Below are positions 2,774 through 8,724 of a stretch of DNA of 64,000 nt, piece by piece. The stretch lies in the NCBI GenBank assembly GCA_903825305.1, contig CAIKAC010000005.1, positions 1-64,000 on the forward strand. The letters are read 5' to 3'. Position 1 is the stretch's first letter. Every line of letters begins with the position of its first letter. The notes under the pieces are model-generated. The model was not told the DNA's origin. It saw nothing but the letters and a program-made list of their open reading frames with translations, and searched no databases. Position numbers and translations under genes: made by a program. This DNA comes from an uncultured Actinomycetes bacterium (GTDB taxonomy: Bacteria > Actinomycetota > Acidimicrobiia > Acidimicrobiales > RAAP-2).

Positions 2774-3145
2774 TCAGGCTGGGCGCAATCGCAGTCGCTC
2801 CGCAATCTCTGAAAGCTCTAACTGAGTGCTCGATACCTCGATCATGAAATCGTAGGCTTCGTCGTTGGTCAATCCAGGTTCACAACCATTGAGGTCACAG
2901 AACACCGCTGTACACAACCATGCTGTCCGCTTGTTGCCATCGACCAAAGCATGGTGCTTCGCCAATGAATGAAGGAGCGCTGCCGCCTTCAATTCAAATG
3001 TTGGATAAGCATCTTCGCCGAACGCACTCGCACGCGGTCGGCTAACCGCAGAATCGAGCAGACCAACGTCACGCACCGGACCGACTCCGAGCATCCGCAC
3101 GATGTCGATGACGTCATCAAGTTCAAGATATTCAACCGAGCTCAC
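2774..3145 (-). CDS. doc: Doc-type Fic-fold toxin
   Basis: This is a 123-residue death-on-curing protein. The Fic motif is H-H-A-L-V-D-G-N-K-R-T-A-W (about residues 68-80), preceded by the helix KAAALLHSLAKHH. Doc proteins phosphorylate EF-Tu and stop translation. The GTG start at 3143-3145 overlaps the antitoxin stop by 4 bp (GTGA). Unlike classical phd-doc, the partner is a ribbon-helix-helix protein, not Phd. The active-site motif looks complete: the H, the D (in place of F/Y-x-D/E) and the G-N-K-R loop are all present. It appears to be the one intact toxin-antitoxin pair in this region. Confidence 0.85.
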   Translation of the reverse strand: MSSVEYLELDDVIDIVRMLGVGPVRDVGLLDSAVSRPRASAFGEDAYPTFELKAAALLHSLAKHHALVDGNKRTAWLCTAVFCDLNGCEPGLTNDEAYDFMIEVSSTQLELSEIAERLRLRPA

Positions 3146-3348
3146 GTGGTGCGGAGGCGCTCCAAGACATCGCCCCACCGTTGTTGCATTTTTTCGCTGG
3201 AACTGGCAACACGAGCACCGTGACCCGATCGTTCGTAGCGCTCAAGCACAGCTCTGCGAATGATCTCCTGCCGAGACGTACCCTCGCTCACTGCTAGAGC
3301 CGTCAGTGCCGTTTCCAATTGGTCATCAGTTCGAACCGTAAGTGCCAT
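3142..3348 (-). CDS. Ribbon-helix-helix (CopG/Arc) antitoxin
   Basis: The 68-residue product starts MALTVRTDDQLETALTALAV, then GTSRQEIIRRAVLERY: a β-strand followed by two helices, typical of RHH DNA-binding antitoxins. The C-terminal 20 residues (QQRWGDVLERLR) would bind the toxin. The ATG at 3346-3348 lies 7 bases from a perfect palindrome, leaving no room for a Shine-Dalgarno site, so the message may be leaderless. It is coupled to doc by a 4-bp overlap and probably represses its own promoter. Confidence 0.8.
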   Translation of the reverse strand: MALTVRTDDQLETALTALAVSEGTSRQEIIRRAVLERYERSGHGARVASSSEKMQQRWGDVLERLRTT

Positions 3349-3355
3349 CGTGAAA

Positions 3356-3374
3356 TGATACCACTTTGGTATCA
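3356..3374. promoter_or_regulatory. Palindromic operator of the RHH-doc pair
   Basis: TGATACCA-CTT-TGGTATCA: two perfect 8-bp arms around a 3-base spacer, immediately upstream of the antitoxin start. RHH antitoxins bind such short inverted repeats cooperatively, so autorepression is the natural reading. No -35/-10 pair is obvious around it. Confidence 0.65.
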
Positions 3375-3498
3375 AGGTGCATTATGGTCTACCAACTGCT
3401 TTGGCCGACAATCTCAGGCACCTCTCCTTCGGGTATGCCCGACTACGAGTTTCTCCATCTGACTGTCAAACCACATGGCTTACGTTCTGTTCCTTTCT

Positions 3499-3849
3499 TC
3501 AGGAGATCTCGCGCTCGTCCTCATGGTGGCAGCGACAGGCGAACTCTCGGTGTCGGGCTTCCCATAGACCAATCCAGCGAACCTCATCATCGATAGCGAG
3601 TGAAGTCACGGTTGGCCCAATGGCATCAATCCCGCTCACCACGGTGGTCGCCATGGAAATAGCTTGGCGCTGAAGCGACGGCGGTAAATCAGAAATTTCA
3701 GATTGATCAATGACCGACCACCACCCATCCGCATTTCGTTGCACGACAACATGACGAGGATGCTTGGACGAAGGTGCCGTCGGAATTCCAATAGCCTCGA
3801 CGTCACTTGCCATCACGAGTGATTGTCCTTTACACCGATGCTTAGGCAT
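3499..3849 (-). CDS. Unknown third gene of the dab operon
   Basis: The 116-residue product is not recognised. The ATG at 3847-3849 has a good Shine-Dalgarno (GGAGG, inside the last codons of dabA) and overlaps the dabA stop by 8 bp (ATGCCTAA), so it is translationally coupled. Visible features are a short basic Cys-containing start (MPKHRCKGQSL), a VVVQRNADGWWSVID strand pair, a central helix (SLQRQAISMATTVVSGIDAIG), and a His/Cys-rich end (HREFACRCHHEDER) that could bind a metal. It has no membrane segment. Its position suggests an accessory or regulatory role for the DabAB bicarbonate pump; this is inference. Confidence 0.6.
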   Translation of the reverse strand: MPKHRCKGQSLVMASDVEAIGIPTAPSSKHPRHVVVQRNADGWWSVIDQSEISDLPPSLQRQAISMATTVVSGIDAIGPTVTSLAIDDEVRWIGLWEARHREFACRCHHEDEREIS

Positions 3850-6037
3850 CTTGACCTCCAAATCCAACACCAGGAATCCAAACTCGCCACTCATCAAGCG
3901 CATTGTTTCTGCCGATAAGCCGAACCCATTCACCCTCAATGAGATGTTGTGGCATCTGTGACGCGTGCACCGCTGTCGTGATGCGATCAAGAGGAGCCTC
4001 GACCGCTACCAGCAGCCGTACTGGCAGATGCACAAGACGCCTACCCGTCGAGAGCGACTGGCGAGGCAACCCAAGGCAGAGATCAGGGTCGTCGCCTCGC
4101 ACGACAGCAAAGTCACCAACCGGATTGTGCAGGGTCTTATCGCCCGCTCCGAGCACATCGGGAGCAACTGACGAGAAGAAGTACGCCGCATTGATCCAAT
4201 GGGCAACCACCATGGGGGCAGCCAAGATGGAAGCCAAAATCGATCCGTCACCGTCCGCATCAGGATCGTAGGAGTGAAGAAACGATCTCCCCTGGAGATC
4301 AATACCTCGGATCGATGCCCGTGGGGCCACGACAAATGCTGCGTGGTCAGCAAGGCCCCATTCTGGTCTCACTTCTGACCAGTCTCGAGCACGTCGATTG
4401 AGGATTCGGCGCGCTGACGACACCGAGTGGTGGGACGCATCAACGCGCTGTAACGCGACGCGGTTACTTGCACGCTCAAGCAAGCTCACCAGCTCAGCCG
4501 AGCTTGCTTGGTCCACTTCCACCCTCTCTCTCGTGGTGTCATGCTCGCCAGACAAAAACCGCGTCGAATCAGGGATGGATATGCCGACTTTGCGTAAACC
4601 TGCTCGAACTTCTTCATCATTCAAGAGTTCTGCTAACGCAGCCGCATTGGGTCGGCCAGCATGGCCCGCGCACGCACCGCACTCAAGGGCGGCGAAATGC
4701 GGGTTATTGGCGGTGGTGGAACGATGGCCAAGGAACACCACCTCTTGGGCAAATCGCTGGGTCATCCCCATGGCGCGCAATGCCCCTTCAGCGATCTTGA
4801 TTTGATCAGGAGCGTTCAGGTGCCACGTGCCTGGTAGCGGCATTGAGGCTAGCTGTGCTCTAGGGAAGAAACTTCTCGCTAGCAACCACGGTGTGGCGAG
4901 AAAACCGCCAGATTCAGCCAGAGCGAACATCGTCGCCGGTTCATGAGTCAGTTCAGCCAATGTGGCACCTGCCGCCACCATTTCGCTCTTGGATACCGTT
5001 GGTGTAGGTCCACCCTCAATGAGTGCCGAGGGTGGGACTAAGACGGGAAGTGATTCGTAAGCTTCGTGATCACTTGATGGCTGAACCATTGCGGGCACGC
5101 CAAAGAATCCGGCAAAGCCAAAGGTTTCAACCTCTGCATCCTCTTCAAGCGCTCGACGAAGTGGTTCCGATCGAACATCAATACAGGTCACGATCTGGAA
5201 TCGCGGATGAGGAGCCTCAACTCCTGGACGGGGGGCGAGCCATTTGATGAATTCCCCGTGGACAGCCAGCTCGAGCATCTCGAGACGTTCGCGTCCACCT
5301 TGCCATCGTGTGGAAACAGTCGGATATGGTGCAGCAGGGATAGAGGCACCAGCTGTCTCAAGTACCGCCAGATCAACGGCCAGTGACACCGTGAGAAATT
5401 CACGCCTGCTCAGCCCTGCATGGTGAGCACGTCGAGCCCAACAATCATTCCACTTCGCCCACGCAGACCAACCCGGCAAGCGCGCGAAGTGTCGAGCCAT
5501 TTCTTCTTCCATCTCCGCCTCACTCCATGACGAACATGATCCGAGCAGCTGCTCCAATTCATTCGACTTGAGCAAAGCAACGAGCGCCATCTTTTGTTGT
5601 CGGGAGATTTGGATCCAGCTCGATGAAGACTCAACGACTCCACATACTCGCTGCGCAAAATCTTCAGGTCGCGCATCGTCAGCGAGTGCCGTTTGGAGCA
5701 AGATCTGCCCGACGATGCTTCTGAGATCAATCCGACGTTGTCCCCCATCAACAACTCGCTCAGCCATGGTGGGGGGACGGTGAGCGGTGGTTGAGTCTGT
5801 CAAGGTCGGCTCGGTCACGTTGAGTCCGCGCCGCCGGGCTTCTTCGAGGTGGACGCGGCTCGGCCATGGATCGATACCAAGGCGCATACCGATCTGGCTC
5901 ACTGCTTCCGAGAAATCGTGACCTATGAGATCAAGAAGGGGATTCACCGCGACCGCTCTATCGAGTGGCCAGAGCACCCCAACCTCTTGCGACGCGTGAT
6001 CAATCATCGTCTCGACATCCGTCGTGGTAACACCCAT
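3842..6037 (-). CDS. dabA: DabA, zinc-binding subunit of the inorganic carbon transporter
   Basis: This is a 731-residue protein of the DUF2309/DabA family, which hydrates CO2 vectorially at the inner membrane when paired with DabB. The family start WPLDRAVAVNPL lies at about 23-34. The β-carbonic-anhydrase-like site is visible as TCIDVRSEP (Cys285, Asp287, Arg289), followed by ETFGFAGFFGV, and later FLGHRSTTANNPH (His438) and ALECGACAGH (Cys453), matching the Cys-Asp-His-Cys set that binds zinc in characterised DabA. The C-terminal ASILAAPMVVAHWINAAYF segment is also typical. The start overlaps the dabB stop by one base (TGATG). The protein suggests CO2 fixation or a need for concentrated bicarbonate. 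Confidence 0.93.
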   Translation of the reverse strand: MGVTTTDVETMIDHASQEVGVLWPLDRAVAVNPLLDLIGHDFSEAVSQIGMRLGIDPWPSRVHLEEARRRGLNVTEPTLTDSTTAHRPPTMAERVVDGGQRRIDLRSIVGQILLQTALADDARPEDFAQRVCGVVESSSSWIQISRQQKMALVALLKSNELEQLLGSCSSWSEAEMEEEMARHFARLPGWSAWAKWNDCWARRAHHAGLSRREFLTVSLAVDLAVLETAGASIPAAPYPTVSTRWQGGRERLEMLELAVHGEFIKWLAPRPGVEAPHPRFQIVTCIDVRSEPLRRALEEDAEVETFGFAGFFGVPAMVQPSSDHEAYESLPVLVPPSALIEGGPTPTVSKSEMVAAGATLAELTHEPATMFALAESGGFLATPWLLARSFFPRAQLASMPLPGTWHLNAPDQIKIAEGALRAMGMTQRFAQEVVFLGHRSTTANNPHFAALECGACAGHAGRPNAAALAELLNDEEVRAGLRKVGISIPDSTRFLSGEHDTTRERVEVDQASSAELVSLLERASNRVALQRVDASHHSVSSARRILNRRARDWSEVRPEWGLADHAAFVVAPRASIRGIDLQGRSFLHSYDPDADGDGSILASILAAPMVVAHWINAAYFFSSVAPDVLGAGDKTLHNPVGDFAVVRGDDPDLCLGLPRQSLSTGRRLVHLPVRLLVAVEAPLDRITTAVHASQMPQHLIEGEWVRLIGRNNALDEWRVWIPGVGFGGQDA

Positions 6038-7458
6038 CACGCTGCCTCCCCTACAGGAATGTGATCTATGAATGGAGCATGGGGCACCCCTACCGCCACG
6101 GGGCTGCTTGCGCGGTGGCCCCATCGAGTGGTAACCGTTGACACGATTGCGACCAACACGCCAAGTAACCACCAGGGCGCGTGCCACAGGGTTGTTGGCA
6201 GCGATGAACCAAGCAAGCGTTCACAACCAACGAGCAGACATCCATAGACCGAGAGCCCAAGGACGAGAACAATCCAGGTTGCCAAGGGCCGAATAGTTGG
6301 TTGTTTCGTGCGCGTAAGCCACAAAACCACGGCACCGGGACCAAAGACCCCCATGGCGGCCAGTACTCCTCCACCTTGTGTCACACCAAAGGTGGTGGCA
6401 ATGAGCACGATCCCCACGCAGCCAAGCACCTTCATTGCACTGCTGATGTGCTTACCTTGTGGCGCTTGCCTGCGTTGGCGCGACCGCGATTCGAGTGCTC
6501 CACCAGCTGCCATAAAGCGACCTGCCTTATAGAGGCCATGTCCGATGAGGTGCGTGATGGCTAAGACTGGCCATCCGAGAGCGAGTGTCAGGAACATGAA
6601 CGCCATCTGCGCAACGGTTGATACTGCAAGTTGACCTTTGAGATCGACTCGCGCATGGATCCGAGGAGCGAGCACCACGAGCACGCTCAAACTCAGAGCA
6701 ATGAGGACGATCTCTACTCCCCAGATCGAACCGGTGAGTCCTTCGATTCTGATGAGCAAGAGTGCGCCTGCGTTCACCACGCCAGCGTGCAAGAGTGCCG
6801 AGAGTGACGTGGGCGTAGCAATCGTTCCGACTACCCATGAGGAGCGCGTCGTCAGACCCGCTCGACCCATTGCCGCGACAGCTGCTGCGGCGAGGAGTAT
6901 GACGGCACCCGCGCCACCTCGTGGGAGGTGCGCGCCAAATGATGTCGTCATGGCATGCCTTCCCACCACCCACCATCCCAACAACGAACCAGCCACCAGG
7001 CATGTGTCAGTGAGGACAAAGGTCTTCGCAGCGTGGGCTGTAATTGACCTACTCCAGTTCCCCGATCCCGCCCATAGCAGCAAGATGACGCTGATCGACG
7101 TTGCGACCCAAGAGACAACGAGCGCTGCTGGATTCGCGGCTAGGTCAGATGCGAGCACCGTGGCAATGACCACAAAGGACGAGGCGATGATGCCATCGGC
7201 GCGTCGCTCGCCATGGAACTGGCGATTCGCATAATGAAGGGCACAGCCGCCGATGACGAGTGCCGCGATCCCGATAGGTACTCCGAGACGATCCACTCGC
7301 CACCACCCTGAGCCGTGCTGACTGATGCCCACAATGAGCAGCACCGCTGCAGCCGGGATCAACCAAAGGCATGCGGCCTTGAGTCGTGGGCCACCCACAT
7401 AGGAGAGAAGAGCTCCAGTAAGAAGCAGGGCGAGTGAGTATTCAGCGGCATTGGTCAT
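6037..7458 (-). CDS. dabB: DabB, membrane subunit of the inorganic carbon transporter
   Basis: The 473-residue polytopic membrane protein is related to the NuoL/MrpA proton-channel family. About a dozen hydrophobic helices are visible, with internal conserved parts such as TTRSSWVVGTIATPTSLSAL, HAGVVNAGALLLIR and ATSISVILLLWAG. In DabAB systems this subunit is thought to couple ion movement to CO2 hydration by DabA. The gene order dabB-dabA with a one-base overlap is the usual one. The ATG at 7458 sits only 8 bases from a good -10 box, so the transcript is probably leaderless. Confidence 0.9.
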   Translation of the reverse strand: MTNAAEYSLALLLTGALLSYVGGPRLKAACLWLIPAAAVLLIVGISQHGSGWWRVDRLGVPIGIAALVIGGCALHYANRQFHGERRADGIIASSFVVIATVLASDLAANPAALVVSWVATSISVILLLWAGSGNWSRSITAHAAKTFVLTDTCLVAGSLLGWWVVGRHAMTTSFGAHLPRGGAGAVILLAAAAVAAMGRAGLTTRSSWVVGTIATPTSLSALLHAGVVNAGALLLIRIEGLTGSIWGVEIVLIALSLSVLVVLAPRIHARVDLKGQLAVSTVAQMAFMFLTLALGWPVLAITHLIGHGLYKAGRFMAAGGALESRSRQRRQAPQGKHISSAMKVLGCVGIVLIATTFGVTQGGGVLAAMGVFGPGAVVLWLTRTKQPTIRPLATWIVLVLGLSVYGCLLVGCERLLGSSLPTTLWHAPWWLLGVLVAIVSTVTTRWGHRASSPVAVGVPHAPFIDHIPVGEAA

Positions 7459-7525: not shown

Positions 7526-7861
7526 TCAGGTATCACTCACAGCACTAAATTTCGTTGGCGTTTCAAGCATGGCCAACAAGTCTCCCACCGCATGGTTGGC
7601 CTCGATCGGGTGACGGAAGGGCACGGCAGCTACCACGGTGTAGGTATTTCTCCGCCCGGTTCGCTCCCGAATCAAATAGCCAGCGGCTACCAGGTCAGCG
7701 ATGATGGCCTGCGTTGCTCGCTCGGTAATGCCCACTTCTGTCGCAATCTCTCGAGTTCGAATAGTCGGATTTCGATGAATGCAAATCAGCACGTGCGAGT
7801 GATTGCTCAAGAAGGTCCATTCCTTCTTTCGCTGTTGGGGAGCATGCGGTGGCTGTTCCAT
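7526..7861 (-). CDS. Winged-helix transcriptional regulator beside dabBA
   Basis: The 111-residue protein has a MarR-like winged-helix core: WTFLSNHSHVLICIHRNPT, TREIATEVGITERATQAIIADL (recognition helix) and a wing, AAGYLIRERTGRRNTYTVV. The C-terminus (HPIEANHAVGDLLAML) may form a dimer helix. It lies upstream of dabB in the same direction with 67 bp between them, and that gap carries the dabB promoter and an inverted repeat. Control of dabBA is therefore likely. DabAB loci in other bacteria are often linked to LysR regulators; a small MarR-like protein is a different solution. Confidence 0.75.
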   Translation of the reverse strand: MEQPPHAPQQRKKEWTFLSNHSHVLICIHRNPTIRTREIATEVGITERATQAIIADLVAAGYLIRERTGRRNTYTVVAAVPFRHPIEANHAVGDLLAMLETPTKFSAVSDT

Positions 7862-7908
7862 ACCTCGTCAGTTTTGCACGATTGGCGAGAAGTTGTTCGA
7901 GATCCTCA

Positions 7909-8724
7909 GTGACGTCGGGTCTTTTGGCAACCAAGCACCGCAAGATCACGATGGTTGCACCAGCACTCGAAGCCATCGGGTGGACGGTGAGCGACGTCGA
8001 GGTAGATACCGATGTGCTGGGAACCTTCGCCGGTGACGTTCCTCGTCTCGGGTCGGCGCTCGACACCGCTCGCAAGAAGGCGCTGTTAGGACGCAGATAC
8101 AGCGATGATCCCTGGCTCCTTGCATCCGAGGGTTCCATTAATCAATGGCTTCCCGGTATCCATCGAGATGTTGAGATCGTGGTCGCACTACATCGCTCTC
8201 ACGAGGTCATGGTGGTCGGCATGGCGGATAGCTTCGATATTTTCTGCACTCGGTTCGTTGTTGATCACAACACATCAGAAGAAGAAATTCACCTCATGTG
8301 CGCGGGAGCTGACTTGTCACGGCATCATCTTGTGATCTCAGCCTCTGATCATTCCTTCTCACCAATTGGCGGATTGAGTAGTACCGAAGTTGTTCTCGAT
8401 GCCATTAAAGAACGACGAGCACGCACTCGGCGATTGGTCATTCAGACTGATCTTCGAGCACACCTCTGTCCATCTCGCCAAGCGACGATTGTTGCGGCAT
8501 CTCGAGACCTTGCTCTTCGCTTGAATCACCCGTGCCCACGCTGTTACCAACCCGGATATGGAGAAGAACAAGCAATTACGGGCTTAGCGTGTCGTGATTG
8601 TCGTATGCCGACTCAAGAAATCGCAGCGAGGCAATACCTCTGTCCGTGGTGCCATCATCGTGAGACCCAAGACGTGACAGGTTCTCTTGCAGATCCGAGT
8701 AACTGCTCTCTGTGTAATCCCTGA
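7909..8724 (+). CDS. DUF6671-like protein with C-terminal zinc ribbon
   Basis: The protein of about 271 residues begins LLATKHRKITMVAPALE and contains DTDVLGTFAGDVPRLGSALDTARKKALLG and LASEGSI. These features match my recollection of the DUF6671 family; the function is unknown. The spacing of K-H-R-K near the N-terminus, G-S-A-L-D-T-A-R-K-K-A and L-A-S-E-G-S recalls the ITPase/YjjX fold. The C-terminal 60 residues carry four CxxC or CPxC pairs (CPRCYQ, CRDC, CPWC, CSLC), i.e. one or two zinc ribbons. I chose the GTG at 7909; the ATG at 7849 would overlap the divergent regulator's start. It is divergent from the dab operon, so a shared control region is possible. Confidence 0.65.
   Translation: MTSGLLATKHRKITMVAPALEAIGWTVSDVEVDTDVLGTFAGDVPRLGSALDTARKKALLGRRYSDDPWLLASEGSINQWLPGIHRDVEIVVALHRSHEVMVVGMADSFDIFCTRFVVDHNTSEEEIHLMCAGADLSRHHLVISASDHSFSPIGGLSSTEVVLDAIKERRARTRRLVIQTDLRAHLCPSRQATIVAASRDLALRLNHPCPRCYQPGYGEEQAITGLACRDCRMPTQEIAARQYLCPWCHHRETQDVTGSLADPSNCSLCNP

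Follow-up and report, generated by a model that had tools for sequence, protein, structure and literature searches.

A conserved gene coupled to dabA in an acidimicrobial genome, very probably a reduced descendant of purK

The window analysed here, a stretch of 64,000 nucleotides, contains a dab operon in which the 116-codon open reading frame that follows dabA is a selected, conserved gene. This third gene very probably descends from a purK gene of the dab operon. PurK, N5-carboxyaminoimidazole ribonucleotide synthetase, is a bicarbonate-consuming ATP-grasp enzyme of purine synthesis with a length of about 390-400 aa; the product of the third gene (116 aa), which we call mini-PurK, has under a third of that length and has almost certainly lost catalysis. 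The full explanation, in which a dab-linked purK was reduced to a subunit of the pump, has in our judgement an even chance of being correct.

The third gene of the dab operon and its conservation

The dab operon lies entirely on the minus strand. The dabB gene (6037..7458) encodes a NuoL/Mrp-like membrane subunit of 473 aa (Pfam Proton_antipo_M, E 4e-17), dabA (3842..6037) encodes 731 aa (Pfam DabA, E 3e-169), and the mini-PurK gene (3499..3849) encodes 116 aa followed by a TGA stop. The ATG of mini-PurK (3849-3847) stands five bases ahead of the dabA stop codon TAA (3844-3842), and the two genes share an 8-nt overlap (3842..3849) that includes the end and the stop of dabA. A Shine-Dalgarno sequence, GGAGGT, is located within the 3' end of dabA (3854..3859), with a spacing of 4 nt to the ATG. 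The original prediction had described a 116-residue protein at this position, starting inside the dabA stop behind a strong Shine-Dalgarno sequence and coupled to dabA, and the window sequence bears out each of these points.

Relatives were searched at several depths; the window genome is designated G000, other G numbers denote genomes of relatives and L numbers their loci. With DabA as bait, matches were obtained in 21 of 100 relatives, the closest proteins being those of G077, G064 and G069 (57-60% identity to the window DabA). It had been suggested to look for the same gene after dabA in close relatives, and it is there in two of these three, G069 and G077 (in the latter cut by the contig end), and not in G064. 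A profile search added five homologues in another genus, each directly after dabA. An eight-row profile model gave a confident homologue in 8 of 172 family genomes, the weakest at E 8.5e-17 and the next match at 0.001. All eight carriers belong to the 25 of these 172 genomes that have DabA according to Pfam, and in all of them mini-PurK directly follows dabA and overlaps its stop. The overlap is the four-base ATGA or GTGA, shared by the dabA stop and the likely mini-PurK start, in seven carriers, and is longer in the window. A strong Shine-Dalgarno sequence was seen by eye in G000 only, the GC-rich relatives keeping the overlap and not the Shine-Dalgarno sequence.

Homologues away from dab genes, which the original prediction named as an argument against a tie to the pump, did not turn up with confidence in the 172 family, 397 order or 395 class genomes; the order and class searches each gave two confident homologues, the same pair G000 and G184. 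The three genome sets overlap in part and each search scored 11-26 first-look candidates per genome, so that a distant homologue elsewhere may be missed. Searched as a single sequence against 61 relatives, mini-PurK matched the window genome alone, the seven other carriers lying outside those 61.

Several weaker matches were set aside. Those of G101 and G191 to the profile (E 1.5e-4 and 8e-4) were taken as chance: they contain internal stop codons, their genomes are not among the 25 with a Pfam DabA match, and they are gone from the listing of the eight-row model at E 0.05. Five of six weak matches of the order search were judged by eye to be chance (two frames of unclear nature, plus one histidine kinase, one oxidoreductase and one FHA protein), as was the weak class-search match in G050, which is one of the same five; the sixth is the dab-linked PurK of G461. 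The 24 rows at E 0.001-0.05 given by the eight-row model in the 172 family genomes were excluded from the homologue count. Three of them lie by coordinate inside PurK genes (G003, G021, G075), which speaks for the PurK relationship described below, and two are dab-linked, namely a degenerate PurK in G028 and a small ORF after dabA in G150.

The gene also bears a signature of selection. Between G000 and G069, codon positions 1, 2 and 3 are 54, 63 and 26% identical, fourfold sites are 24% identical against 27% expected at saturation (25 sites), and 39% of the residues are identical. Third positions are thus saturated and positions 1 and 2 are kept, indicating purifying selection on the protein sequence. 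The reading frame is intact in the seven full-length members, and five residues are invariant across the eight aligned rows. The claim that dabA is coupled to a genuine third gene is therefore sustained by its position after dabA in eight of eight carriers and by this codon-position signal.

Relationship to PurK and the operon series

In relatives, the slot after dabA holds a graded series of genes. The most complete loci have the order dabB-dabA-PII-purK-purE-fabI. At four loci (G075, G107, G015 and G461, the last from another family of the order) dabA is followed by an intact-looking PurK, with a P-II-like gene between the two in the first three and not in G461; purE comes next in G075, G107 and G461, and fabI is present in G075 and G461, the remaining examined stretches ending earlier. 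At the G075 locus, Pfam and NCBIfam confirmed P-II, PurK (TIGR01161, above cut-off) and PurE (TIGR01162, above cut-off); FabI is the best model for the enoyl-ACP reductase, just under its cut-off. At four other loci (G028, G205, G019 and G041) a degenerate PurK of 197-257 aa occupies the purK slot before fabI, with P-II present at the first three and absent from G041. In the DabA group of the window the slot is filled by the mini gene of about 110 aa, or the gene is lost. The seven mini-PurK loci that were checked gave no match to P-II or purE.

Profile comparisons with hhalign connect the three forms. The degenerate and full PurK profiles align over 210 columns (probability 96.4, E 1.4e-9), the mini and degenerate profiles match with probability 95.7 and E 1e-8, and the direct comparison of mini with full PurK places mini residues 37-111 onto PurK 215-296 (probability 67.4, E 5e-5). 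The scores are 70.4, 57.7 and 38.1, respectively, against maxima of 22.2, 18.6 and 18.6 among 100 column shuffles per profile pair, none of which reached the real score in any pair; reversed-profile controls gave a probability of 0.1. The full-PurK profile has five rows representing four distinct PurKs, since L039 and L139 represent one locus. BLASTP also matched mini-PurK to PurK at 1e-4, in a database of 10 proteins to which its E-values are relative.

Among family models, one gives a supporting match. The degenerate protein of G041 matches the NCBIfam PurK model at 3.7e-10 with 39 bits, below the cut-off of 327, and that of G019 has no NCBIfam match; none of the four degenerate proteins matches a Pfam model. 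A Pfam scan of eight mini proteins gave no PurK or ATP-grasp match, and an NCBIfam scan of the window protein gave nothing. The sole Pfam match among the eight members, OPT to one of them at E 0.017, was taken as chance. With PurK, a conserved protein missed by both Pfam and NCBIfam gains a very probable origin.

Compared with PurK (PF02222, PurK_C PF17769, TIGR01161), mini-PurK has a homologous core, the same operon slot and the same predicted sub-fold, whereas the mini rows of the merged alignment are without the N-terminal pre-ATP-grasp domain, the lid region and PurK_C. The NExALRPHNSGH motif is absent from all seven full-length mini rows, and the Glu of the AVExF motif is retained in two of them (G069 and G195); we take both motifs to be metal/ATP-binding residues of PurK. 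The window genome has a separate, intact PurK on another contig (TIGR01161, 6e-107, above cut-off), beside which a PurE-like frame was seen by eye. In a search of 26 genomes, a second full-length PurK was present elsewhere in all 12 genomes with a degenerate or mini form, and in none of the four with an intact dab-linked PurK, among which G107 and G075 are 81% and 64% complete, so that a second copy may be missed there. This distribution fits a dab-linked copy freed from metabolic duty.

In a quick, midpoint-rooted tree of DabA (34 rows, four of them under half filled), the eight carriers all fall in one 13-row group (SH-aLRT 100). The rest of the group comprises three rows without the gene and two, G150 and G155, with a shorter, probably related ORF that matches mini-PurK weakly (hmmsearch E 0.007 and 0.023). 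G064 and G011 have no mini-PurK, and fabI directly follows dabA. The tree neighbours of the group are the degenerate-PurK rows G028 and G205 (SH-aLRT 86), then G019 (59, weak); G041 is placed elsewhere, so reduction may have occurred more than once. The direction from PurK to mini-PurK is taken from homology and motif loss, not from the root of the tree.

Other forms of the operon were observed on the way. Loci L041 (6252-9140), L168, L039 and L134 have a dab operon with purK, plus purE within reach, and a P-II-like gene or fabI in some; the P-II match in L041 is to PF00543 at E 2e-15. At L059 (4031-7140) and L018 the order is dabA-P-II-fabI with no PurK-like match between, which is another reduced form. 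The short ORFs at the dabA end in G150 (L157, 987-1349) and G155 (L156, minus strand) have a GxW hairpin and helix motif similar to the one in mini-PurK and may represent the reduction going further. G001, the one same-genus genome in the family search listing, has no DabA match, and a loss or gain of the dab pump may have taken place inside the genus of the window.

Possible role at the bicarbonate pump

The loci of the relatives suggest that in these Acidimicrobiia-type bacteria bicarbonate is pumped for purine (PurK/PurE) and fatty-acid synthesis. With purK once in the dab operon, the pump would have stood alongside a purine enzyme that consumes bicarbonate and an enzyme of fatty-acid synthesis. 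In the lineage of the window the separate PurK would serve purine synthesis, and the dab-linked one probably first lost the nucleotide-binding lid and the metal-binding motif, as in the 197-257 aa forms, some of which have the N-terminal domain; loss of that domain would have come next, leading to the form of about 110 aa. The remaining ATP-grasp core is under purifying selection and produced by translational coupling to dabA. We infer, as a further step, that the mini protein may bind DabA and have been retained for this contact and not for catalysis; it may also replace the missing PII protein.

Linkage to dabA in eight of eight carriers, with overlapping genes, argues that what was kept is useful to the pump. 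From this genomic linkage we propose that mini-PurK could act on the DAB pump as a subunit without catalysis, either accessory or regulatory, which agrees with the regulator or extra subunit offered in the original prediction; we regard this role as evenly poised between right and wrong. Regulation of DAB-type pumps against futile cycling is called a key question in the DAB2 structure paper (accessible portion of PMC13144422). A more specific version, possible and rather doubtful, is that an enzyme consuming the product of the pump turned into a dedicated regulatory subunit of it, giving up catalysis and over two thirds of its residues. The PurK remnant would then be docked to the cytoplasmic DabA, where it would gate the vectorial hydration of CO2 by carboxylation or nucleotide demand in place of the absent P-II. 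The P-II-like proteins of same-family relatives are likewise small and encoded directly after dabA, but belong to a different family and are a separate gene there, and none of the eight mini members matches PF00543. Three of the four loci with full PurK have one, as do three of the four with degenerate PurK, versus none of the seven mini loci checked; yet P-II is also missing beside the full PurK of G461 and the degenerate one of G041, and the lack of P-II is hence no particular mark of the mini form. The mini gene itself is absent in 3 of 13 rows of the DabA group and short and weakly matched in two more, and must hence be dispensable somewhere.

A selected, non-catalytic PurK derivative could instead act on PurE, FabI or a carboxylase, or be a nucleotide or AIR sensor, and its tie to the pump would be co-expression only. 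We consider this a tentative option: fabI comes directly next in three of eight carriers (G069, G194 and G157), intact PurK has PurE as its partner, and the operon members of the relatives share bicarbonate-linked pathways. However, fabI was not found beside the gene in the examined flanks of G000, G195, G184 and G192 (G077 ends within the gene), the best FabI match and the PurE-like frame of the window genome are on other contigs, and the fixed neighbour is dabA in all eight confident cases. It is unlikely that mini-PurK is instead a vanishing remnant of PurK, left over from the reduction of the operon, without selected function and harmless to dabA. Such a decay would agree with the shortening across loci from PurK to degenerate, mini and no gene, with the loss in G064 and G011 and with the even shorter ORFs of G150 and G155, but the intact frames, the five invariant residues and a confident predicted fold speak against it, and the saturated synonymous sites with conserved first and second positions and residues largely refute it for the G000-G069 pair.

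DAB is described as a complex of DabA and DabB in the available parts of PMC8438413 and PMC12918739, and the premise of the original prediction that DabAB is normally two genes is roughly correct, with exceptions. One is DAB1 of Halothiobacillus neapolitanus, for which the accessible text of PMC13144422 gives a third protein, hneap_0908, a small hypothetical transmembrane protein; it resembles mini-PurK as a small extra protein encoded with DabA and DabB, and is set apart by its description as transmembrane, mini-PurK being very probably derived from an ATP-grasp enzyme. Another is the mpsABC operon of Staphylococcus aureus, where, according to the part of PMC6689103 that is available, MpsAB is reported not to need the downstream mpsC, which a weak terminator sets apart. 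This is likewise a third gene after pump genes, whereas mini-PurK overlaps dabA. The dispensability of mpsC counts against the subunit role proposed for mini-PurK. We found no literature on DUF2309 with purK, or on an operon of dabA and PurK, in a search whose coverage left out most subscription papers. Full PurK, degenerate PurK, mini-PurK and no gene beside the same pump form a graded series, which makes a non-catalytic contribution of a bicarbonate-using enzyme to a pump testable by swapping pieces.

Predicted fold, tail and neighbouring genes

An AlphaFold2 model of mini-PurK, built from the eight-row alignment, has a mean pLDDT of 84.8 and a pTM of 0.75, and the pLDDT is at least 90 for 83 of the 116 residues. 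The predicted order of elements is helix, strand, strand, long helix, strand, strand; residues 101-114 have a pLDDT below 50. Codons 32-97 (3559..3756, minus strand) form a beta-beta-alpha-beta-beta core which, by the AlphaFold2 secondary structure, hhalign and the merged alignment, maps onto a portion of the ATP-grasp domain of PurK. The Foldseek matches listed from the PDB (50 of 720 at E <=10) are all ATP-grasp-domain enzymes, among them pyruvate and other biotin-dependent carboxylases and PurK (1b6s, 9zoi, 10bm, 3r5h), with modest E-values of 5.5e-4 to 1e-2 among those listed. In VIA-align the top Z is 10.3 (1a9x, rmsd 8.2), followed closely by 1jdb (Z 10.2, rmsd 2.6 over 92 residues), and PurK 4izo reaches Z 8.8 (rmsd 4.3, 101 residues). 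As modelled, the mini protein holds an ATP-grasp core, which is part of the fold only.

Taken by itself, the fold indicates ATP-grasp; it is the sequence profiles, the intermediates and the operon position that point to PurK. Pyruvate carboxylases rank above PurK in Foldseek, and carbamoyl phosphate synthetase (CPSase) and D-Ala ligases come first in VIA-align, as would be expected if the protein were an ATP-grasp-like fragment of another enzyme (biotin carboxylase, D-Ala ligase) or a case of fold convergence. We nevertheless consider such an origin very unlikely, because the sequence profiles (in a comparison set of PurK profiles only), the shared operon slot and intermediates that align over most of PurK favour the dab-linked PurK. 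For the degenerate protein of G041, Foldseek ranks 1-7 are PurK crystal structures; the underlying AlphaFold2 model is of low confidence (pLDDT 54) and this result is supporting only.

The tail of the window protein (codons 101-116, 3502..3549, minus strand) bears His and Cys residues but is unconserved in the alignment. The His/Cys-rich tail of the original prediction thus exists in this one protein, as ACRCHH, and is not shared among relatives. A zinc chaperone or metal-binding regulator of DabA acting through the tail is extremely improbable: zinc is bound by DabA2 (accessible portion of PMC13144422) and scattered His/Cys occur in the tails of G069 (HH and two Cys), G184, G192 and G194, but none of the six full-length rows besides the window has CxCHH, G157 and G195 have no His or Cys in their tails, the rows share no aligned Cys/His cluster, residues 101-114 are predicted to be disordered and the core is an ATP-grasp fragment. 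CIDVR and H...C motifs in the window DabA resemble, in an unaligned match by eye, the zinc-site residues given for DabA2 in the same part of that source (C351, D353, R355, H524 and C539).

Upstream of dabB, a winged-helix regulator (MarR/HTH_24-like by profile match; 7526..7861, minus strand) adjoins dab in relatives too, and a DUF6671 gene (7849..8724, plus strand, exact start uncertain) lies divergent from the operon, as it does in relatives. DUF6671, with a Cys-rich C-terminus, is divergent from the winged-helix regulator preceding dabB in L112, L113, L123, L125-L127, L169, L170 and the window; in L041 both are there in a differing orientation. A link of this pair to bicarbonate control is possible. 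Downstream of mini-PurK, the window has toxin-antitoxin-like genes (192-584, 2390-2641 and 2774-3375), namely a PIN domain, a Phd/YefM antitoxin and Fic/Doc with a ribbon-helix-helix gene; the position after the third gene is thus taken by toxin-antitoxin-like genes in the window and by fabI in some relatives.
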